DNA from: Nitrososphaeria archaeon
GTDB lineage: Archaea > Thermoproteota > Nitrososphaeria > Nitrososphaerales > Nitrosopumilaceae
Length of the DNA stretch: 47,128 bases
Assembly (NCBI GenBank): GCA_010028495.1
Contig: RHCX01000003.1
Coordinates: 1-47,128, forward strand
Direction of reading: 5' to 3'
The position numbers and the translations under genes were made by a program. This document shows positions 2,846 to 19,153 of the stretch, one piece after another. The notes under the pieces were generated by a model, which was given only the letters and a program-made list of their open reading frames with translations, searched no databases and was not told the origin of the DNA. Each line of letters opens with the position of its first letter. The stretch's first letter is position 1.

Positions 2846-4960
2846 ATGAAATCAACTCAGAAAATTTTCGATGAAACAATGAAGACAGACCACAAGGTTA
2901 TCACCGAGGATGTCTCTAAATCAATTCTAAAAGCATACGGCGTCAAAGTCCCACCATATGCACTAGCAAAGACTGCAAAAGATGCAGTCAAGGCATCCAA
3001 GAAAATTGGATTCCCACTAGTAATGAAAATTGTTTCCCCGCAAATTCTACACAAAACAGATGCGGGCGGAGTAAAGGTTGGAGTTGCAAACGCAAAAGAA
3101 GTCAAAAAGACATTTGATACTATTATTAAAAATGTGAAAAAATACGACAAGAAAGCCGAGATCAAAGGAGTCCTATTGGAGAAAATGGTTCCAAAAGGAG
3201 TCGAGATGATTGTCGGACTGCAAGTCGATCCGCAATTTGGCCCTGTTATTATGGCCGGCCTTGGCGGTGTAATGACTGAAGTCTTCAAAGACGTAGCATG
3301 GAGAATGCTGCCGATTACAATGGCTGACGCAAAATCCATGATTGAAGAACTAAAGTCATCAAAATTATTCAAGGGCTTTAGAGGCTCAGCACCAATTGAT
3401 CTGAATATGCTTGCAAAGGCACTAGTTCAGATTGGCCAAATCGGCGTGGACAATGCATCCCATGTCAACAGCATCGACTTTAATCCAATAGTGGTGTATC
3501 CGAAATCCTACTTTGTTGTTGATGCAAAGATAATCCTTGCAAAAGAGGTAAACCCCAACGCAATATCCAAGGCAACACCAAATGCAGAGTTTATGGAGAA
3601 GTTCTTTACTCCTGCATCGGTTGCACTGGTTGGTGCATCTGCAACACCTGGCAAAGTCGGAAATTCTGTACTTGATTCTCTTGCAAAACACGACTACAAG
3701 GGTACAGTATATCCAATTAATCCAAAGTCTGAGGAAATACTTGGAGTAAAATGCTATCCATCAATTGAGGCAATACCGGGAAGCGTAGACCTGGTAGTGG
3801 TTTGCGTTGATCTGTCCGTTACGCCACCAGTGCTGGAATCATGCGCAAAGAAGGGAATCCATAATGTCGTTATTGTATCCGGCGGAGGAAAGGAGCTTGG
3901 CGGAGAGCGTGCAGCATACGAAGCCCAAGTCAAAGAATTATCAGAAAAGCACAAAATCAGAATTATTGGTCCAAACTGCATTGGAATGTTCAATGCGGCA
4001 AACAGACTAGACTGTGCATTCCAAGGACAAGAAAGAATGGTCAGAGCAAAACTTGGAAATGTCGCACTGTTGTCACAATCTGGAACAATGGGAATCAGCT
4101 TCCTAGAATCTGCTGACTCGTTTGGTTTATCCAAAATGGTCAGCTATGGAAACCGTTCAGATGTAGATGAAGCAGACATGATCTGGTATCTAGCATCAGA
4201 CCCACAAACCAAAGTAATAGCATTATACGTAGAAGGCTTTGGAGATGGACGCAAGTTCGTCGAGACTGCCAAAAAAGTAATGGCTGAAAAGAAAAAACCA
4301 GTCGTTATCTGGAAGAGCGGAAGAACTGAGGCAGGTGCAAAGCAGGCAGCCTCTCACACCGGCTCACTTGGAGGCTCCAACGCTATCATCATGGGGGCAT
4401 TCAAGCAAGCAGGAATCATCTCAGTTGAAAGCTACCAAGAACTGGTGGCAGTCACAAAAGCACTTGCATGGCAACCAGCTGCAAAGGGCAACAAGGTTGC
4501 AATGTGTAGCAACGGTGCAGGTCCAATGATTGGAGGTATAGACCAGTTTGAAAGACTCGGACTAAAACTAGCAACAATCTCTCCAAAGATCCTAGACGAG
4601 ATGAAAGCACACTTTCCACCAACCTATGTCATCGGCAAGGGCAATCCAGCAGATGTCACCGGCGGCGCAAACGCAGAAGACTATCGTTATACGATAGAAA
4701 AATTCTACGAGGAAAACGACGTAGATGTTGTTATGCCTTGGTTTGTATTCCAAGACGATCCTCTGGAAGAGACAATCATCCAACACCTGGCTAATTTCTC
4801 AAAGCAACAGAAAAAGCCACTATTGGTAGGCGGAAACGGCGGTCCATACACGAAGAAGATCTCAGCACTAATCGAAAAAGAAGGCGTGCCAGTCTATGAT
4901 GATCTTAGAGACTGGACGGCAGCTGCATCTGCACTTGCTCAATGGGGCAAGCACCTCTAA
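2846..4960 (+). CDS. ADP-forming acyl-CoA synthetase, probable 3-hydroxypropionyl-CoA synthetase of the HP/HB cycle
   Basis: Fused ATP-grasp and CoA-binding/succinyl-CoA-ligase-like domains ([47 protein letters not shown]); adjacency to the enoyl-CoA hydratase matches my recollection of the Nitrosopumilus maritimus Nmar_1309/1308 pair. Confidence 0.85.
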
Positions 4961-8804: not shown

Positions 8805-9836
8805 CTATAGTTCCGGCTCTATCCCCTTGGCAATTCGCAAGGCATCAACTAGACCATCTGCATATCCGATAGATAATATGGCAAGCTCATCCTGGCCTTG
8901 CGAATAGAATCTCTCTGCATCCTTGATGTACAAGTCTGCATTTTCCAAAACACTGGCAAATTCCTTGGAATCTTTGTAGTGCGGTGTTATTTGGTCCAGT
9001 GCACGCCGTACCATTGGGATGTATTTTTTCATCATTTGTGCAGATATCTTTTCTATTTTTGGAGTATTGTCTTCTGGCGGATTGATACAATTAGCTAGTA
9101 CCTTTAGCGCATCGGATTCCGTGAAATGCATTATGCCGGGTATGATTATTGTGTGCGGCGGTGCACCAAAGTCCACATTTAATGCTGAAAATTTTCCGGC
9201 AATGATTTTTTGATTAGCCTCTCCAATTCTTGATGCTACAATTCCGTATGTTTCTCCGGAAAAGACCTTTCTTGCTTGCTCTTTTTCCTGCTCTAGCAGG
9301 CTTGATATTGCATCCTTTGGATCCAAAAAGAAGTTCTTGTTTTGATTCCATTCTAATAGTACAATGGTGTGGTTGCCCAGCTTGAGATTCTCAAATATTG
9401 TGTAATATGCAGTGGCCGATGGGATTCCGCTCATTATTGTTACCGTTTTTCCAACTTTGTAAAAGTGCAGACCGCACTCGCCAATCAAAGATGTTATGGC
9501 AGATGATGCGTGAATTGTATCGGTTTTAGTGCCGTCTTGTATTGCTCGGACCCGCAATTCTATATGCGTAGTTGCAATGTACGGGTCGCCATATGATAAT
9601 AATGCAACGGTATTGGTTTTTGCAACTTCGAGAATTTCTTTGCCGTCTTCAACTAGCCACCTTGGAGCTAGTCTGAACTGTCCCTTGGTTAATTGCTGGA
9701 GAAATTTTGTCTGGTCTTCCGACATGGGACTGGTAAACTGCTCAAAATACACAATATCTGATTCTGAGATTATCTTACGGGATTTTTCTGATATTGCATC
9801 CGGGCCGCCAATTCCTAGGCCGACAAACCAGAGCAT
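8805..9836 (-). CDS. dphB: Diphthine synthase (SAM-dependent) fused to a C-terminal DUF357-like helical domain
   Basis: N-terminal tetrapyrrole-methylase fold MLWFVGLGIGGPDAIS...LLSYGDPYIATTH; C-terminal ~88 aa KIEKISAQMMKKYIPMVRRALDQITPHYKDSKEFASVLENADLYIKDAERFYSQGQDELAILSIGYADGLVDALRIAKG. Confidence 0.88.
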   Translation of the reverse strand: MLWFVGLGIGGPDAISEKSRKIISESDIVYFEQFTSPMSEDQTKFLQQLTKGQFRLAPRWLVEDGKEILEVAKTNTVALLSYGDPYIATTHIELRVRAIQDGTKTDTIHASSAITSLIGECGLHFYKVGKTVTIMSGIPSATAYYTIFENLKLGNHTIVLLEWNQNKNFFLDPKDAISSLLEQEKEQARKVFSGETYGIVASRIGEANQKIIAGKFSALNVDFGAPPHTIIIPGIMHFTESDALKVLANCINPPEDNTPKIEKISAQMMKKYIPMVRRALDQITPHYKDSKEFASVLENADLYIKDAERFYSQGQDELAILSIGYADGLVDALRIAKGIEPEL

Positions 9837-10966
9837 TACTTGTCGGTTCTAGAATCGTGCAGTCGTTTTAGATGGTTCAGCATATTTCGGATTACCTCGA
9901 TTCCTCTGAGGTATTCATTCATCGATACCTTTTCGTCTATTGTATGCGATGCATGAGGATCTCCTGGACCATATGTCACTACTGGGATGTTCCACAGAGT
10001 ACCGATAATGTTCATGTCTCCGGTTCCAGTCTTTCTGATCAATGCAGGTCGCTTGTGCTCTACATCCATTACCCCTAATGTGAATGCCCGAACTAGGGGC
10101 GAGTTCATTGGCGCCTCAAACGGTTCTGTTTCGTCTATAACAGAATAGACTGCCTCTACCTGCTGCTTTATTGCCAGCTCGGATACTTTGGTTGAGATTT
10201 TCTCGCCTACAGATTTGCAGTTTAGTGTGACTGGAATTCTGATATCAATTATGGTGTTGCATTCTTTTGGGGTGACGTTGTGGCTGTCTCCTCCCTTGAT
10301 TTCTGTAATAGTGGCAGTTAGCATCATTCCCTTGGATTGGCCTTCCTGGTTTTCCTCAAGGGATTTTTTGAGCTCGCTTGTAAACTTCATGGACTCTTCT
10401 ATTGCATTTCTTGCAAGCCATGGCGCGGATGCATGTGCAGAATCACCCACATTGATTTTGAGATTGATTGCAATTCTTCCTTTGTATGCTATAGTGACAT
10501 TTGTGATTCCTGATGGCTCGCCAAAAACTGCATAGTCGATGTCTAGCTTTTGCTTTGCCAGGTTTTTGATTCCAGTTGCATTTCCTTCTTCATCAACAGC
10601 TCCGACAAAGATTATTGTTCCGTTGTGTCTGTGGACCGTGGACGCTGCCAAAAGCATTGCCATTAGTGGTGCCTTGGCATCAGACGCACCTCTTCCATAT
10701 AGAAAATCACCTTCCTTTCTTACTTTGACCTTACCTGGTACAGTATCCATGTGACCACAAAGCAAAACTCGAGGAGAACCAGAGCCTATAGTTGCAATCA
10801 GGTTTCCTACTTCATCTATTTTGATATTTTCAAATCCTAAATCATCGCACTTGTCTGCCAGAAATTCTGCCATTGGCTTTTCAGCTAGCGATGGTGTGTA
10901 GAGTCGCAATGCCTTTTCCAGCATTTTGATTGAAAACCTTGGTGTAACTGTAAATGACGAGTCCAT
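9836..10966 (-). CDS. lysK: LysW-lysine/ornithine hydrolase (M20 deacetylase family)
   Basis: LLCGHMDTVPGKV, GRGASDAKAPL, DEEGNATG, MNIIGTLWNIPVVTYGPGDPHASHTIDEKV; stop overlaps dphB start (TAATG). Confidence 0.9.
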   Translation of the reverse strand: MDSSFTVTPRFSIKMLEKALRLYTPSLAEKPMAEFLADKCDDLGFENIKIDEVGNLIATIGSGSPRVLLCGHMDTVPGKVKVRKEGDFLYGRGASDAKAPLMAMLLAASTVHRHNGTIIFVGAVDEEGNATGIKNLAKQKLDIDYAVFGEPSGITNVTIAYKGRIAINLKINVGDSAHASAPWLARNAIEESMKFTSELKKSLEENQEGQSKGMMLTATITEIKGGDSHNVTPKECNTIIDIRIPVTLNCKSVGEKISTKVSELAIKQQVEAVYSVIDETEPFEAPMNSPLVRAFTLGVMDVEHKRPALIRKTGTGDMNIIGTLWNIPVVTYGPGDPHASHTIDEKVSMNEYLRGIEVIRNMLNHLKRLHDSRTDK

Positions 10967-10969
10967 TTT

Positions 10970-11815
10970 TTATTTTCCTGATTTAACTGCGTATTCTAAA
11001 ATCTTTCCAGCTATGTTTACGCCTGTCACTCGTGCTACATTTCTGTATTCGGTGGTGTTGTTTATTTCATGTACTACTAAGCCGCGTTCTTTGCTTTCCA
11101 TCAGATCGATTCCTACAATTTGCCCTTGGACACATTTTCTTGCCTTGATGCAGATTTCTTCGAGTTCTGGTGTTATCTTGCATATCTCGGCCGTTCCACC
11201 AAGGTGAGTGTTTGTCTTCCAGTTTTCTGTAGTGGAGTTGCGGTATATTGCTCCTACTACATCGTCACCAATTACAATGGCTCGAATGTCCCTTGGAGGC
11301 CTTTGGACAAACTCTTCCATGTAGTGAATTTGGTAAATTGGATACATTTTTTCTCGCTCTTCTATGATTCCTTCGGCTGACTCTCTATTGTTTAGTCTCT
11401 GTACCATTCTTCCCCAGCTTCCTACGGTCGGCTTGATTACTTTGGGATAGCCCATTTTGTCTAAAGCATCTAAAGCGGAATCTTTGGAAAATGCCACACT
11501 AACATATGGCGTTTCAATTCCTGCGTTTTTGAGCAACATATGCGTGAATAATTTATTTCCTGCATAGACTCCGCAGTACAAATTGTTAATGACATTTGCA
11601 CCCATTCCTTCTAGCGCTGCAGTTGCGTGCAAGTTCCTGTAGTAGCTGACGCATCTTTGCAGTACCGTGTGGTATTGGGATTTTTTATCAACATCTAGTA
11701 CAAGATTCTTACAGTCTACCATCTCGATTTTAATGCCGAGCTTGTCGGCAGCTTCGGTGAGTGCTTTTTCTTCAGGTCGAACAGTATCGTAGAGAATCGT
11801 TATCGGGTGGCTCAC
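10970..11815 (-). CDS. lysX: LysW-alpha-aminoadipate ligase (RimK/ATP-grasp)
   Basis: ATP-grasp signatures KPTVGSWGRMVQ and HEINNTTEYRN; GTG start overlaps lysW stop (GTGA); adjacent to lysW and homocitrate synthase. Confidence 0.88.
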   Translation of the reverse strand: MSHPITILYDTVRPEEKALTEAADKLGIKIEMVDCKNLVLDVDKKSQYHTVLQRCVSYYRNLHATAALEGMGANVINNLYCGVYAGNKLFTHMLLKNAGIETPYVSVAFSKDSALDALDKMGYPKVIKPTVGSWGRMVQRLNNRESAEGIIEEREKMYPIYQIHYMEEFVQRPPRDIRAIVIGDDVVGAIYRNSTTENWKTNTHLGGTAEICKITPELEEICIKARKCVQGQIVGIDLMESKERGLVVHEINNTTEYRNVARVTGVNIAGKILEYAVKSGK

Positions 11816-11979
11816 TGGCCCCAGTCCTCTCCGACGCTTTGAGCTGGTTTTAGCCCAAATCCGCCTGAGGATTTGATTATCTCAAAGCTTGCTCCGCAAT
11901 CGGGACAAGTTACCAATTCGCCTTCTACGGCATCACTTGGAATTGAAATATCTGAATCACATTCAGCACATTTTGCCAT
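11812..11979 (-). CDS. lysW: Amino-group carrier protein LysW (lysine-cluster copy) with non-canonical C-terminal Gln
   Basis: MAKCAECDSDISIPSDAVEGELVTCPDCGASFEI...SVGEDWGQ; two CxxC zinc-binding pairs. Terminal codons read GTC GGA GAG GAC TGG GGC CAG TGA. Start trimmed to ATG at 11979. Confidence 0.9.
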   Translation of the reverse strand: MAKCAECDSDISIPSDAVEGELVTCPDCGASFEIIKSSGGFGLKPAQSVGEDWGQ

Positions 11980-11980
11980 G

Positions 11981-13177
11981 TTAATCCTTACTGTCCTTAG
12001 CATCATTAATTATCTTTCTTTCAAGCTTGTTATCCAGTGGGATTTCCAATAGGTCGCCCATTCTGAGGTTTTTAAGACCTGCAGCGACTGCTTTTGCTTG
12101 GTTGTCGTCTTTTGGCAGTCCTAGCAAAGACATGAGATATGCCGAGCCGCTTTTACCAGCTAGCTCCCCGAATACTATTCTTCGTCTATTGCCAACTACT
12201 CTTGGTGGGATTGGCTCGTAAGCTGCCGGATTTCTTAGTATGGCTGCCAAGTGGGTTCCAGCCTTGTGCTTGTATGCTGTTGGTCCAACTATTGGCTTGG
12301 AGTCATATGGTGGAATGTGTGTGTATTCTTCGATCATTCTGGATAGGTCAGTTAACATGTCTAGTCTGAAATCATTTGGTGACTTGTACAGATACGTCAT
12401 GGCTACTGCCACTTCTGCTAGTGAGGGAATACCTGTTCTTTCTCCGATGCCGTCTATTGTGGTGTGGATTTGCTCAGCTCCGGCATCTATTCCTGCAAAT
12501 GCGTTTGCAACTGCCAGGCCAATATCATTATGACAGTGAACATCTAGTGGCACTTTGATCTTTTCTTTAACCATTTTAACGAAATTGAACATGCCTTTGG
12601 GTCGCATAATTCCTACGGTGTCTGGGAGACTGATTCTGTCGACTCCGGCTTCTTCGATTGCCTTGCATACTTTGAGCAAAAACTCTGGGTCTGCACGCGA
12701 GCCGTCCTCTACAGTAAATCTCATCTTTAGTCCGTGTGATTTTGCATACTCTACAGTTTCTACAGCACGTCTGAGTGCTTCTTCTCGCGTGATTCTGAGC
12801 TTGTCCTTCATGTGGATATCAGATATGCCAAGATATGTTGCGGTCCATTTTGGATCACACTTTAGCGCAACATCGACGTCTTCTTTTAGTGCACGAACAT
12901 GTGCAACAATGTCTGCTTTGAGGCCTTGTTTGATTATGGTTTTAGTTGCCTCAAAATGATCTTCAGATACTACTGGCGAGATTTCAATTTGGTCTACGCC
13001 AAAATAATCAAGCATCCATGCTATCTGGATTCTTTGCTTGTTGGTAAATGTAACACCTGGGTGCTGCTCTCCCTCTCGTAGAGTGCTATCCAGCACGCGG
13101 ATTCTTTTTGGTTTTTTGTCGTACTCGTTGTGCAAATGCGCGTAATAATTTGGGTCGTTCAATGTTAGAGAAATCAA
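11981..13177 (-). CDS. Homocitrate synthase (LeuA-like family)
   Basis: RVLDSTLREGEQHPGVTF, PLDVHCHNDIGLAVANAFAGIDAGAEQIHTTIDGIGERTG; head of lysW-lysX-lysK operon; TTG start, possibly a later TTG at 13162. Confidence 0.88.
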   Translation of the reverse strand: MISLTLNDPNYYAHLHNEYDKKPKRIRVLDSTLREGEQHPGVTFTNKQRIQIAWMLDYFGVDQIEISPVVSEDHFEATKTIIKQGLKADIVAHVRALKEDVDVALKCDPKWTATYLGISDIHMKDKLRITREEALRRAVETVEYAKSHGLKMRFTVEDGSRADPEFLLKVCKAIEEAGVDRISLPDTVGIMRPKGMFNFVKMVKEKIKVPLDVHCHNDIGLAVANAFAGIDAGAEQIHTTIDGIGERTGIPSLAEVAVAMTYLYKSPNDFRLDMLTDLSRMIEEYTHIPPYDSKPIVGPTAYKHKAGTHLAAILRNPAAYEPIPPRVVGNRRRIVFGELAGKSGSAYLMSLLGLPKDDNQAKAVAAGLKNLRMGDLLEIPLDNKLERKIINDAKDSKD

Positions 13178-13281: not shown

Positions 13282-13701
13282 TTACGTTACTTCGCGCAGA
13301 ATTATCACAGTGTTGGTATCAGATACGCCTTGAACTTTTCTTAGTGCGTCAATTGCCAGATTTATCTCTGTGATGTTTGGAGATGAAATCACAACTGCAA
13401 TATCGTATTGACCAGTGATCTCGTAGACTGTCTTTACTCCGTCTAGTTTTGTTAATCGTGCTGAAACCTTGGATGTGTCCATGGATGACTCCACTGATAT
13501 CAGAACAATTGCTTTTGTTGCATTTTGTTCGCCTATCTCAATTGTGAATTTTTTGATAATCTGATTGTCAGTGAGATTTTTGACTCGACGTCTTACTGCG
13601 GATTCTGAAAGTTTGAGCTTTTTGCCGATATCTACAAAGGACTCTCTGGAATCATCTCTTAGAATTCTTAGGATTTCGTCGTCTACTTTATCCTTGTACA
13701 T
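13282..13701 (-). CDS. Lrp/AsnC-family transcriptional regulator (LysM-like by context)
   Basis: N-terminal HTH DEILRILRDDSRESFVDIGKKLKLSESAVRRRVKNL and C-terminal RAM domain; overlaps the end of argD/lysJ by 14 nt. Confidence 0.88.
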   Translation of the reverse strand: MYKDKVDDEILRILRDDSRESFVDIGKKLKLSESAVRRRVKNLTDNQIIKKFTIEIGEQNATKAIVLISVESSMDTSKVSARLTKLDGVKTVYEITGQYDIAVVISSPNITEINLAIDALRKVQGVSDTNTVIILREVT

Positions 13702-14715
13702 TCTTTCTTCTTTCAGATTCCTTGGTAAATAACTTATCGAGAATTTCCAAGACTTTGGTTATCTCAACCTCGGTCATCACTAGGGGTGGCAAGAATCGCA
13801 GTATGTTTCTGCCAGAATATAGCAGCAGAACGCCTTCTTGGATGCCGTCCATGAGAATATCCTTAACCTCGAACTTCATCTCTACACCAATCATCATTCC
13901 TTTTCCTCGGACCTCTCGGATAATACTGTGTTTTTCTTTTAGCTTTTCTAATCCATCCATAAAGAACTTGCCAACCTTTGCTGCGTTGTCGACTAGTCCG
14001 TCTTGTGTTAGGGCTTGGATAGTAGCAATGCCAGCTGCACAAGACAATGGGTTTCCGCCAAATGTTGACGAGTGCTCACCCTTGCTCATTGCCGCCAAAA
14101 TGTCGGGTCTTGTCAAAGTAGCACTCATTGGCACACCGCCTGCAATTCCTTTAGCTAGGCAAATGATATCTGGCGTCGTATTCCAGTGATCACACGCCCA
14201 CATTTTTCCAGTTCTGCCCAATCCGGCCTGGATTTCGTCAAAGATTAGAAGAATTCCGCGCTCATCGCATAATTTTCTGACATCCTGTAGAAATCCTGGA
14301 GGAGATACATTGATTCCGCTTTCTCCCTGAATTGGCTCCATTATCACAAATGCAGTATCAGAGTCGATTTTTTCTCGCAAAGATGCAATGTCGCCAAATG
14401 GCGAGAATGCAACTTTTTCCACCAACGGCATGAATGCCTTTCTGTATTTTGGATTGAACGTAACTGATAATGATCCCAAGGATTTTCCGTGGTATGATCC
14501 GTTCATTGCAATCATTCCAGATTTGTTTTGTCTAATTGTGCTTTTAGAGCTGCAACAACTCGAGGGTTTCTGTGACCAACTAGAGCGACTCCGTATCCAC
14601 CCATACAGTCCAAGTATTCTCGTCCGTTGATGTCGTAGAGTTTTACTCCCTCGCCGCGTTCTATTGTGACTGGGAATCTTTGGTACATGTTGCCCAGGTA
14701 ACTGTCTTCAGTCAT
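13688..14715 (-). pseudogene. argD: Acetylornithine/LysW-gamma-L-lysine aminotransferase, interrupted: N-terminal 14512-14715 and C-terminal 13688-14515 pieces, missing about 50 aa
   Basis: N part MTEDSYLGNMYQRFPVTIERGEGVKLYDINGREYLDCMGGYGVALVGHRNPRVVAALKAQLDK; C part MIAMNGSYHGKSLGSLSVTFNP...IFDEIQAGLGRTGKM...; frames differ and the region normally holding the PLP-phosphate-binding Ser/Thr-Gly-Thr segment is absent. Confidence 0.8.
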
Positions 14716-15513
14716 TTTGTAATCACCGTGCATTTTGTGTGAGATATTGCAGACGATACTGGGTTTTCTCGCTGGCCGTTGCCAATTAGTGCTTCTTTTA
14801 CACCCATATCTAGCGCTTCAGTTGCAGCTAGTATCTTCTTTTCCATTCCAAATCCAACCTTTGGTCGAATCTCTTTGGCTTCAGCATTTGTTAGTTTTTC
14901 TACCAACTTGTCGTTCATTAGCAGGCCGTCCACATTAGTAATGAATAGAATTTTGTCGCTCTGGATTGCCCCTGCAACATTTGCAGCTGCTCGGTCTCCA
15001 TCTATGTTCAGCATGTCAAATTCCTTGCTTACTGCTATTGGGGAGATGACCGGTGTGTATCCTTTTTCTAGTAATAATTTTAGCAATTCTCCGTTTTACC
15101 TTGGTTACCTTGCCTGTATAGCCGCCATCGATTATCTGCTTTCTTCCCTTGTCGTTTACTATTACCAACTTTTCCTTTCTTTCTGCCAAAAATATCTGGC
15201 CGTCAATTCCTGACAATCCTATGGCATTGATGCCGTGTTTTTGCAACATCTGTACAATGGCTTTGTTGATTTTGCCGGACATTACCATCGTGAATATCTC
15301 TGCAGTTTCCTTGTCGGTGTATCTTGATTTGATTCCACCAGGCGATACTACAAACTTTGGCTCCTTACCTAATAGTTCACAGGTTCTGGTTACCTCTTTT
15401 CCTCCACCATGCACAAGAATTACTCCTTCTTGTTCTGCAACTTTTTTGATATCAGTAATGGTGGATGGATGAAGGTTTTCGACGACGCTTCCGCCGATTT
15501 TGATTGTAATCAT
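14712..15513 (-). pseudogene. argB: LysW-aminoadipate/glutamate kinase (acetylglutamate kinase family), frameshifted near 15095
   Basis: 15016-15513 (KIGGSVVENLHP...VHGGGKEV...GGYTGKVTKV) and 14712-15086 (LLKLLLEKGYTPVISPIAVSKEFDMLNIDGDRAAANVAG) join if one A is removed from GTAAAACGGAGAA (restores V-N-G-E-L-L-K). Confidence 0.85.
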
Positions 15514-15517
15514 TTTT

Positions 15518-16573
15518 TTAAACTGGGGTTAGCGGCGAATACTTGAGGCCGTCCATCTCATCAAAGCCTGCCATGATGTTCATGTTTTGTATGGCAGAGC
15601 CTGCGGCGCCCTTCATTAGGTTATCAGATGCAGATAATGCAACTAGTCTGTGATTGTCTTCATCAATGTCAAATCCGATGTCACAAAAGTTGGAACCAAC
15701 TACGAACTTTGGATCTGGGAACTTGTATAGGCCCTTTTTGTCACGGATTAGTCTGATGAATCTCTCATCTTTGTACATTTCACGGTACATCTTCCACAAT
15801 TCAATTTCGGTAACCTCTCTTGTGAGAAATGTGTGATTTGTACACAAGATTCCTCGAACAATATCCACAGCATGTGGACTCATTGATACTTTGATTGGTT
15901 TTCCTGCAATCTCTGATAGTTCTTGCTCAATCTCTCCGGTATGTCTGTGCTTTGCTGGCTTGTATGGTCTAATGACACCAGAACGCATTGCGTGGTGTGT
16001 GCCTGCCACACTGCCTGCTCCAGCACCTGAAGAGCCAATTTTAGAATCTACTATAATATGTTCAGTATCGATAATGTTGTTTTTCACTAGTGGAGCTATT
16101 GCCAGCATTGAGGTTACTGCCATGCATCCCGGACACGATACTAGTTGAGCATTTCTGATCTTCTCTCTGTGCAGTTCTGGTACGCCAAAGACTGATTTTG
16201 CCAGGTATTCTGGGTGTGGGTGCTCCCATCCGTACCATTTTACATATGCGTCCTTGTTGTGCAATCTATAATCCGCTGATAAATCAACAACTTTGAGGCC
16301 TCTATCGTACAGTGCTTTTACTATCTCAGTTGCTGTTCCATGTGGAACTGCAGTGAAAACCAAGTCGCACTTGTCTGATATTTTATCATAGTCTAATTCT
16401 GAAAATGTTAACTCTGTAAATCCTTTAAGTGCTGGTTGGACTCGATGCAAGTACTCTCCTACATACTGTCTTGAGGTAACTTGGGTGATCTCTACTTTTG
16501 GATGAGTGACCAATAATCGTAGCATTTCTCCTCCAACATAACCGGATGCTCCGATGACTCCTACACGTAACAT
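15518..16573 (-). CDS. argC: N-acetyl-gamma-glutamyl-phosphate / LysW-aminoadipyl-phosphate reductase
   Basis: MLRVGVIGASGYVGGEMLRLLVTHP; catalytic Cys VSCPGCMAVTSMLAI; start trimmed to ATG at 16573. Confidence 0.92.
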   Translation of the reverse strand: MLRVGVIGASGYVGGEMLRLLVTHPKVEITQVTSRQYVGEYLHRVQPALKGFTELTFSELDYDKISDKCDLVFTAVPHGTATEIVKALYDRGLKVVDLSADYRLHNKDAYVKWYGWEHPHPEYLAKSVFGVPELHREKIRNAQLVSCPGCMAVTSMLAIAPLVKNNIIDTEHIIVDSKIGSSGAGAGSVAGTHHAMRSGVIRPYKPAKHRHTGEIEQELSEIAGKPIKVSMSPHAVDIVRGILCTNHTFLTREVTEIELWKMYREMYKDERFIRLIRDKKGLYKFPDPKFVVGSNFCDIGFDIDEDNHRLVALSASDNLMKGAAGSAIQNMNIMAGFDEMDGLKYSPLTPV

Positions 16574-16651
16574 GTTCCTACAATGTAGGCGGTATAATTT
16601 ATTGTATTCTGCATCAGAAAAAAATTTATTCAATTTCATATAGTTCAGTTT

Positions 16652-16908: not shown

Positions 16909-17766
16909 CTATTTTCTAATTTGAGAAACTGCGAATTTTACCATTTCTTGTGGAATATTTTTCTTGGCAACTCTTGCCAATCCTTTGAATTCAACGGTGT
17001 TATTCACTTCATGGCATACTAGACCACGAGCTTTGTCCTCCATCAGATCAATTCCGAGGATTCCGCCGCCTACAGCTTTTGATGCTTTGAGGCAAATGTC
17101 TTCTACCTCTTTAGTAATCTCGCACAATTCTGGGTCTCCACCTAATGCAATGTTTGTCTTGAAATCTCCTTGAGATTTTCTGTACATTGCAGCTATGACC
17201 TGGTCGCCCACAGTTATTGCGCGTATGTCACGTGGTGGTCTGTCAATCATTTCTTGTAAATAGTAAATTCTGTCATGTGAGCCGTCCTGGATATCGCGCA
17301 TCTCTATGATTGCCTCGGTAGTATCCTTATCTCGCAATGGCATCACACCACGACCCCAACTTCCAATGACTGGTTTTATCACAATTGGATAGCCAACTTT
17401 GTTTATCAAATTCATTGCTTCTTCGGAAGAAAATGCAAAGTATGTCTTTGGTGTAGGAACACCGGCTTTTTTCAACAACAACGATGTGACCATTTTGTTT
17501 CCGCAATTGTCAGCAACTTTGTGGGAATTAATCACTGGAATATCTAAAAATTCTAAACAAGAGGTAAAGTGCAAGCCTCGAAAATAGCTGACACATCTTT
17601 CTAGGACAACGTCGCCAACTTGTACATCGGCGCGTTTGCTTTCTGTGCTTAACTGGGTTATCTTTGCATCCAGCATTATTGTATCGTGACCAAGTGTGTT
17701 TGAGGCATCTTGGAGCATCTTCTCTTCTAGCCTTATTCGGTCAAAGACGATACAAAACTTGGACAA
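16909..17766 (-). CDS. argX: LysX paralogue, probable LysW-glutamate ligase ArgX
   Basis: RimK ATP-grasp (KPVIGSWGRGVMPL, HEVNNTVEFKG) next to lysW copy 2 and argG. Confidence 0.82.
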   Translation of the reverse strand: MSKFCIVFDRIRLEEKMLQDASNTLGHDTIMLDAKITQLSTESKRADVQVGDVVLERCVSYFRGLHFTSCLEFLDIPVINSHKVADNCGNKMVTSLLLKKAGVPTPKTYFAFSSEEAMNLINKVGYPIVIKPVIGSWGRGVMPLRDKDTTEAIIEMRDIQDGSHDRIYYLQEMIDRPPRDIRAITVGDQVIAAMYRKSQGDFKTNIALGGDPELCEITKEVEDICLKASKAVGGGILGIDLMEDKARGLVCHEVNNTVEFKGLARVAKKNIPQEMVKFAVSQIRK

Positions 17767-17934
17767 CTATTCTCCCCAGTCTTCGCCTACGCTTTCTGCA
17801 GGTTTCAGTGATACGTTTGAGCCGCTTTTAGTTGCGATTTCAAAGTCTGCGCCACATTCTGGGCAAGAGACTATCTCTCCAACTGCTGCATCATCCGGGA
17901 TGTTGATTCCTGCGTCACATTCTAAACAATTCAT
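17767..17934 (-). CDS. lysW: Amino-group carrier protein LysW, arginine-cluster copy, canonical EDWGE C-terminus
   Basis: MNCLECDAGINIPDDAAVGEIVSCPECGADFEIATKSGSNVSLKPAESVGEDWGE. Confidence 0.93.
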   Translation of the reverse strand: MNCLECDAGINIPDDAAVGEIVSCPECGADFEIATKSGSNVSLKPAESVGEDWGE

Positions 17935-17945
17935 TACGATCCTTC

Positions 17946-18983
17946 TCACCTCTTGTTTGATAATTTATTAGCTTCTGTTGTTTGCAATCCCCACAATTCC
18001 ACAAATCCTGTTGCCTTTCTTTGATCAAAGGCAGAGCCCTTGCCGTAGGTTGCAATGTCATGACTATACAAAGAGTACTTGGATTTTCTTCCAACTACTC
18101 GGAAGCTTCCTTTGTACAGTTTTAGCTTTACAGTTCCAGTCACTGTTTTTTGGGACTGGTCGATGAACTTGTCCAGATCACGCTTTAGTGGGTCTTGCCA
18201 CAAACCGGAATAGGCAAGCCATGTCCATTCTTGGTCTACTAGACTCTTGAACTTGTTTTGGTGTTTAGTGTGGACCATTTTTTCTAAATCGGAATGTGCT
18301 TCTATCAGGCATAGAGCGGCTGGGGTCTCGTATTCAATTTCTAGATATCTTGCCTTGTCTGGTAGATTCTTTGTTTTTACCCAGATGAATGCATCCTCTG
18401 GCGGTTCATTGTATGGGTCTTCTAGGTTTCCGCCTTCTATGGCTCTGCCCCAAAGGTTTTGATCAATTGAAAATTTCTTTGATACTGAATCGATTGGAAT
18501 TCCGTGCTTGTTTGCAAATTCTAATTCTGTCGTTCTGTCTAGGTTTAGGTCTCTGATTGGCGCAATAATTGGGAGATTGGAACCAGAACCAAATGTTACA
18601 TCAAATCTTACCTGATCGTTTCCTTTGCCTGTGCAGCCATGTGCCAGTGCATCGACTTTTTCTTTCTTTGCAATTTCCAGAACCTTCTGTGCAATTAGTG
18701 GCCTAGCTAGCGAAGTTGCTAAACAGTATTTGTTTTGGTATAGTGCGTTTGCCTTGATTGAAGGATGGATGAAATCCTCGACAAACTCTTTTTTCGCATC
18801 TATATTGTAATGGCGTAGTACACCGAGATTCTTTGCTTTGGCTGCAATTTTTTTCTGGTCGCTTCCCTCACCTACATCTATGGTAACAGTGATGACATCC
18901 ATACGATGTTTTTCTTGTAGGTATTTGATTACAACTGAGGTGTCCAGTCCACCAGAAAAAGCAAGTACTGCCTTTTGTTTCAT
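17946..18983 (-). CDS. argG: Argininosuccinate synthase
   Basis: MKQKAVLAFSGGLDTSVVIKYLQEK, AHGCTGKGNDQVRFD; start trimmed to ATG at 18983 (ORF extends to 19142). Confidence 0.95.
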   Translation of the reverse strand: MKQKAVLAFSGGLDTSVVIKYLQEKHRMDVITVTIDVGEGSDQKKIAAKAKNLGVLRHYNIDAKKEFVEDFIHPSIKANALYQNKYCLATSLARPLIAQKVLEIAKKEKVDALAHGCTGKGNDQVRFDVTFGSGSNLPIIAPIRDLNLDRTTELEFANKHGIPIDSVSKKFSIDQNLWGRAIEGGNLEDPYNEPPEDAFIWVKTKNLPDKARYLEIEYETPAALCLIEAHSDLEKMVHTKHQNKFKSLVDQEWTWLAYSGLWQDPLKRDLDKFIDQSQKTVTGTVKLKLYKGSFRVVGRKSKYSLYSHDIATYGKGSAFDQRKATGFVELWGLQTTEANKLSNKR

Positions 18984-19153
18984 TAGAGCTTTTCCGTTAA
19001 ATGATTTGCATTTATCCTTTTTGCTGATCGAATTTTGGAATCTCAAAAAATTTTTCATTCTAAGAATTTGGAAAAAATTTCGAGCCACGACATTAGCTAA
19101 AGCTGAAGCTAAATTCCGATCAATATTTAACCGAATTTTCATAACGCTGTTTT

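Follow-up and report, generated by a model that had tools for sequence, protein, structure and literature searches.

The window, i.e., the whole 47,128-nucleotide stretch of DNA that was analysed (contig RHCX01000003.1 of a Nitrosopumilaceae assembly), contains two genes for the carrier protein LysW, one in a lysine cluster and one on the arginine side, together with the ligases and shared enzymes that act on the carrier. The features of the locus are as follows:

9836-10966, minus strand: lysK, M20 hydrolase freeing Lys or Orn from LysW and, by inference, a candidate LysW-Gln deamidase (TIGR01902 268.7 bits, above cut-off; PF01546, PF07687)
10970-11815, minus strand: lysX, ATP-grasp ligase (AAA type from context and a WKTNT motif) with the GSWGR tail-recognition motif (TIGR02144 318.5 bits, above cut-off)
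11812-11979, minus strand: lysW, lysine-cluster carrier of 55 aa with an EDWGQ end (NF041070 89.7 bits, PF21344 45.6 bits)
11815-11817, minus strand: Gln codon CAG at the end of this lysW, where classical LysW has a Glu codon, GAG or GAA (from the sequence; C is the first base in 80 of 83 lysine-type orthologues)
11981-13177, minus strand: homocitrate synthase-like gene (isopropylmalate/homocitrate synthase family), immediately upstream of lysW (TIGR02146 387.6 bits, slightly below the cut-off of 413.6)
13688-14733, minus strand: lysJ aminotransferase, frame broken (intact homologue in L170, the locus of a soil Nitrosocosmicus genome discussed below)
14712-15513, minus strand: lysZ kinase, in two frames in the window assembly (intact homologue in L170)
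15518-16639, minus strand: lysY/argC reductase of the shared cluster (from the translation; same gene order in L170)
16909-17766, minus strand: argX, second LysX-family ligase, after the second lysW and argG (TIGR02144 308 bits)
17767-17934, minus strand: second lysW, arginine side, 55 aa with an EDWGE end (curated models including NF041070, 89.0 bits)
17946-19142, minus strand: argG (argininosuccinate synthase) ORF, real start probably internal (from the translation)

Two genes of the shared cluster are defective in this assembly. A 1-nt insertion near position 15,095 splits the frame of lysZ, which is single and intact in relatives, and most probably arose in the sequencing or assembly of the window MAG; lysJ lacks ~154 nt compared with five relatives, which breaks its frame and reflects either a misassembly or a genuine deletion. 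Because the conclusions rest on other genomes, they are untouched by these defects.

The lysine-cluster lysW encodes MAKCAECDSDISIPSDAVEGELVTCPDCGASFEIIKSSGGFGLKPAQSVGEDWGQ followed by a stop, and its 3' codons are GAG GAC TGG GGC CAG TGA, while the second lysW, which lies between argG (the marker used to assign LysW copies to the arginine side) and argX, ends GGA GAA TAG; the positions and terminal codons given for both copies by an earlier reading of the sequence alone (hereafter the sequence-only reading) are correct. The lysW and lysX genes overlap in CAGTGA, the last base of CAG being the first base of the lysX start codon GTG, so that the third base of CAG is constrained and its C is free. 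The overlap was considered as a cause of the terminal Gln and rejected, since the C is unconstrained and CAA or CAG precedes TAA or TAG elsewhere without any overlap.

Apart from its last residue, the lysine-cluster protein has the features of the LysW/ArgW family. Its scores exceed the family cut-offs of both curated models (89.7 versus 75 bits for NF041070; 45.6 versus 27 bits for PF21344), the former of which also matches the second copy (89.0 bits), and it retains the zinc-ligand cysteines (CAEC and CPDC) as well as the EDWG tail. Its gene stands in an operon with a GSWGR-bearing LysX and the shared LysZ, LysY, LysJ and LysK, of which lysZ and lysJ are the two broken in the window. The C-terminal Glu encoded by the family is replaced by an encoded Gln, and the protein is therefore classed as a family variant rather than as a classical member; a Gln-ending LysW is a variant of the known carrier system and does not constitute a new system.

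The terminal Gln is widely conserved amongst close relatives. EDWGQ encoded with CAG is present in all 30 of the best homologues from a search of 101 relatives, each from a separate genome, and the Gly codon preceding it varies amongst them (GGA, GGC, GGG or GGT). When the LysW adjoining each non-identical ligase with 60% or more identity to the window LysX was read, 80 of the 83 lysine-type orthologues of Nitrosopumilaceae, complete genomes included, ended in Gln, whereas the sequence-only reading had named Glu in orthologues as the outcome that would refute it; the three exceptions, with GAG, belong to a single Nitrosopumilus subclade. Carriers of EDWGQ include named isolates or cultures such as Ca. 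Nitrosotenuis chungbukensis and Ca. Nitrosotalea devanaterra. Within family f1 the C of CAG changed once versus at least 12 times for the neighbouring Gly wobble position, a contrast that constitutes weak evidence because only one of the three possible changes at that C yields Glu and all three Gly-wobble changes are silent. A preference for Gln over Glu within f1 is thus weakly indicated, and strong selection for Gln inside the family was rejected as an explanation on the same grounds.

Across the phylum, both endings are common. Amongst 398 genomes spread over 163 genera, EDWGQ followed by a stop was found in 87 genomes (25 genera) and EDWGE followed by a stop in 246. A profile search of all fetched loci yielded 156 distinct LysW sequences (a set mostly fetched by homology rather than by ending, and centred on this phylum), of which 82 end in Glu, 74 in Gln and none otherwise. 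In a phylogeny of 128 LysX/ArgX sequences, the end of the partner LysW switched between Glu and Gln at least 12 times, with eight switches forced by well-supported branches. The lysine copy carries Gln in most of families f1 and f8; a soil Nitrososphaerales clade (L128-L135) has the reverse assignment, with Gln on the arginine copy (CAA or CAG before TAG) and Glu on the lysine copy; and both copies end in Gln in three genomes (G081, G455 and G031). Even a single genus can contain both states, as in G222 (L179), which matches Ignicoccus hospitalis and has Gln, versus its congener G184 (L180), which has Glu. From this free interchange over the phylum, Glu and Gln look nearly equivalent. Several other residues are one base change away from a Glu codon, yet only Glu and Gln occur at the end, indicating that a side chain with a gamma-carbonyl is conserved; the lack of any residue without one is expected if the final chemistry takes place at a gamma-carboxylate.

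LysX and ArgX join their substrate to the side-chain carboxylate of the C-terminal Glu of LysW, and LysK normally hydrolyses the gamma-amide that joins Lys or Orn to the same C-terminal residue. The distribution of endings points to a working Gln-ending LysW that is probably deamidated to Glu ahead of loading. LysW would be made as an EDWGQ pro-form, its C-terminal side-chain amide would be hydrolysed to give the canonical EDWGE tail, and LysX or ArgX would then load the gamma-carboxylate of the deamidated protein; the later steps would proceed via LysZ, LysY, LysJ and LysK as known, with the Glu form of the carrier being recycled. Deamidation first was one option of the sequence-only reading and is the best remaining explanation, but the enzyme known for such a reaction, Dop/PafA (PF03136), had no match in any of the 16 genomes searched (the control match in Corynebacterium glutamicum was recovered) and was rejected as the LysW-Gln deamidase. 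The neighbourhood of lysW in Ignicoccus hospitalis contained nothing suggestive of a deamidase gene, the neighbours being acetyl-CoA acyltransferase, a LysX-family ligase and CarA. The likeliest candidate would be LysK, encoded two genes downstream of lysW, because it normally hydrolyses the gamma-amide of that very residue, releasing Lys or Orn where deamidation would release ammonia, a parallel to Dop. LysK scored above cut-off (TIGR01902) in 14 of 14 genomes searched; it cleaves the finished gamma-amide, and its role as a deamidase is hypothetical, as is the use of ammonia as a leaving group in a pocket that normally recognises an amino acid. A role for LysK, which falls within the deamidation reading, is on balance somewhat less likely than not. 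A literature search limited to non-subscription papers returned no mention of EDWGQ or LysW deamidation, and neither biochemistry nor proteomics nor genetics of a Gln-ending LysW.

The partner enzymes do not change with the ending of the carrier. The tail-binding motif GSWGR is present in every LysX of the set, including partners of Gln-ending LysW (the motif was also used to select LysX, but the LysW that lack such a neighbour are few and mostly lie at contig ends), and 44 of 45 near-invariant LysX positions share the major residue when the partner ends in Gln. No LysX residue tracks the switch (best column, 3.3 of 8 independent pairs) and no LysK residue tracks Gln (best, 2.3 of 5 pairs), the power of these comparisons being modest with eight forced pairs for LysX and five for LysK. 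The constancy of LysX and LysK is expected if Gln is converted to Glu before the ligase acts, through an activity common to all these cells, and a LysX that somehow tolerates Gln would be just as consistent with the lack of covariation. The sequence-only reading had raised the idea of a deamidation-gated carrier, which is not supported by the repeated interchange of Glu and Gln without a covarying LysX or LysK residue; that pattern resembles equivalence more than regulation, and regulation through deamidation is possible.

LysX and ArgX could instead act directly on the Gln form and place the substrate on the C-terminal alpha-carboxylate, making deamidation unnecessary. Relatives of LysX in the RimK ATP-grasp superfamily, such as RimK, MptN and CofF, add glutamate to alpha-carboxylates, and a terminal Gln leaves the alpha-carboxylate free. 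Such chemistry is nevertheless unlikely: it gives no reason for termini restricted to Glu and Gln in 156 sequences, it predicts co-evolving residues in the LysX tail pocket, where none was found, and it demands that the downstream enzymes, which are common to the Glu-ending carrier in the same cell, accept two geometries.

The sequence-only reading had also proposed that the Gln copy is inactive and that the EDWGE copy serves both pathways. The proposal could hold in the window genome, which does have a Glu-ending copy, as do most members of its family alongside one Gln-ending copy, and in the passage of PMC10433800 that cites it, a single Sulfolobus LysW serves both ligases. As a general account, the proposal fails on nine genomes from several lineages in which a single LysW passes the Pfam cut-off and ends in Gln (G067, G098 and G420; G222; G108; G115; G213 and G236; G219). 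Each of the nine has two LysX/ArgX ligases (the second ligase of G213 lying slightly below the cut-off, at 275.2 versus 275.6 bits) and LysK, and lacks ArgJ; none has DapA or LysA above cut-off. Matches below cut-off are LysA-like in the Nitrosocosmicus-like genomes and DapA-like in four of the other single-Gln genomes. A LysA-like decarboxylase of 236-248 bits (cut-off 297.9), with no accompanying DapA match, occurs in G067, G098, G420, G081 and G455.

Two of the nine match named autotrophs. G067, which contains locus L170, matches Ca. Nitrosocosmicus franklandus C13, which has a closed genome of 2,836,447 bases and was isolated in inorganic medium, where it grows autotrophically on bicarbonate (PMC6776761). 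In L170 (positions 3900-4010) the arginine-side lysW has been cleanly lost, with argG overlapping argX, leaving two ligases and, in the order HCS-LysW(Q)-LysX-LysK, a sole carrier. G222 matches Ignicoccus hospitalis, an autotroph with a genome of 1,297,538 bp (PMC2614490) whose lysine synthesis is predicted to proceed via aminoadipate. In a haloarchaeal carrier, exchange of the terminal Glu for Ala (E54A) abolishes arginine synthesis and causes Arg auxotrophy (PMC10433800), and an idle Gln-ending carrier would therefore bar these autotrophs from inorganic medium. Judging from autotrophy and the absence of known alternatives, the Gln-ending carrier must function alone in single-LysW genomes. 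An inactive or regulatory Gln copy, with the EDWGE copy carrying both lysine and arginine synthesis, is accordingly very improbable: the single-Gln genomes and G081, G455 and G031 have no Glu-ending copy at all, the Gln/Glu assignment is swapped in the soil clade, and Gln-ending copies retain the zinc ligands, the EDWG tail and the operon with lysX.

An alternative source of Glu at the CAG codon is translation itself. Archaea generally make Gln-tRNA indirectly, through amidation of Glu-tRNA(Gln) by GatDE, and incomplete amidation would yield a small Glu-ending fraction, of which little would be needed because LysW is recycled by LysK. There is only a slim chance that this is the explanation, given that mischarged Glu-tRNA(Gln) is normally kept out of translation and that a Gln form that is mostly dead weight fits poorly with at least 12 switches, with its long retention and with its becoming fixed as the only carrier. 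Finally, a sequencing or assembly error at 11815-11817 has a negligible probability despite the imperfect assembly evident from lysZ and lysJ, since the same CAG is found in the nearest MAG (G011) and in the complete genomes G008, G012 and G013 and 80 of 83 orthologues agree, and the single-base error or private mutation offered by the sequence-only reading is further contradicted by the recurrence of Gln in unrelated lineages.

The LysW pathway is taught as requiring a genome-encoded C-terminal Glu. Gln replaces this Glu in the lysine copy of almost all sampled Nitrosopumilaceae, which are abundant ammonia oxidisers, and in soil Nitrosocosmicus and Ignicoccus; some of these organisms encode no further carrier. 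Either the pathway has a missing maturation step, which deamidation before loading would supply, or the chemistry of the ligase differs from what has been assumed. The ending EDWGE is thus an unsafe criterion for recognising a functional LysW, and Ignicoccus hospitalis (Gln) and its congener G184 (Glu) provide a natural pair for comparison.

Compared with the classical LysW/ArgW carriers ending in EDWGE (Thermus, Sulfolobus, Thermococcus and Natrinema), the Gln-ending proteins share the family, the four Cys, the EDWG motif, LysX/ArgX with GSWGR and the operon neighbours, and differ in a terminal Gln whose side chain is not activatable as encoded; every LysW of solved structure ends in Glu. LysW-like carriers on plasmids of Streptomyces and Bacillota likewise have a lysW adjoining a RimK-type ligase or ArgC, but all six of these plasmid-borne bacterial LysW end in WGE and their neighbourhoods differ from the argG/homocitrate synthase-lysW-lysX context. 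A LysW carrier on the Staphylococcus epidermidis plasmid NZ_CP043848.1 (L238, 33368-33538) stands with a RimK-type ligase and likely belongs to a small biosynthetic cluster.

The closest functional parallel is the Pup-GGQ/Dop/PafA system of actinobacteria, in which a small protein also ends in Gln or Glu depending on the species and the gamma-carboxylate is the attachment site used by the ligase. LysW shows the same alternation of Gln and Glu among lineages, its attachment role being taken from its family. The proteins themselves are unrelated, LysW being a zinc ribbon and LysX an ATP-grasp enzyme; Pup serves in tagging and LysW in amino-acid synthesis, the deamidation of LysW is a proposal, and the PF03136 enzyme is absent from all 16 genomes searched. 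Dop deamidates Pup-GGQ first and also hydrolyses the finished Pup isopeptide, i.e., it depupylates (PMC3511204), and the LysW side likewise has an enzyme that cleaves a gamma-amide, LysK (14 of 14 genomes). If true, a deamidated LysW would represent a parallel to Pup/Dop built from unrelated proteins; tentatively, and by this analogy, LysW in archaeal lysine and arginine synthesis could be a second, independently evolved instance of a ribosomally made carrier whose encoded C-terminal Gln is turned into the attachment Glu by deamidation, with LysK moonlighting as the deamidase.
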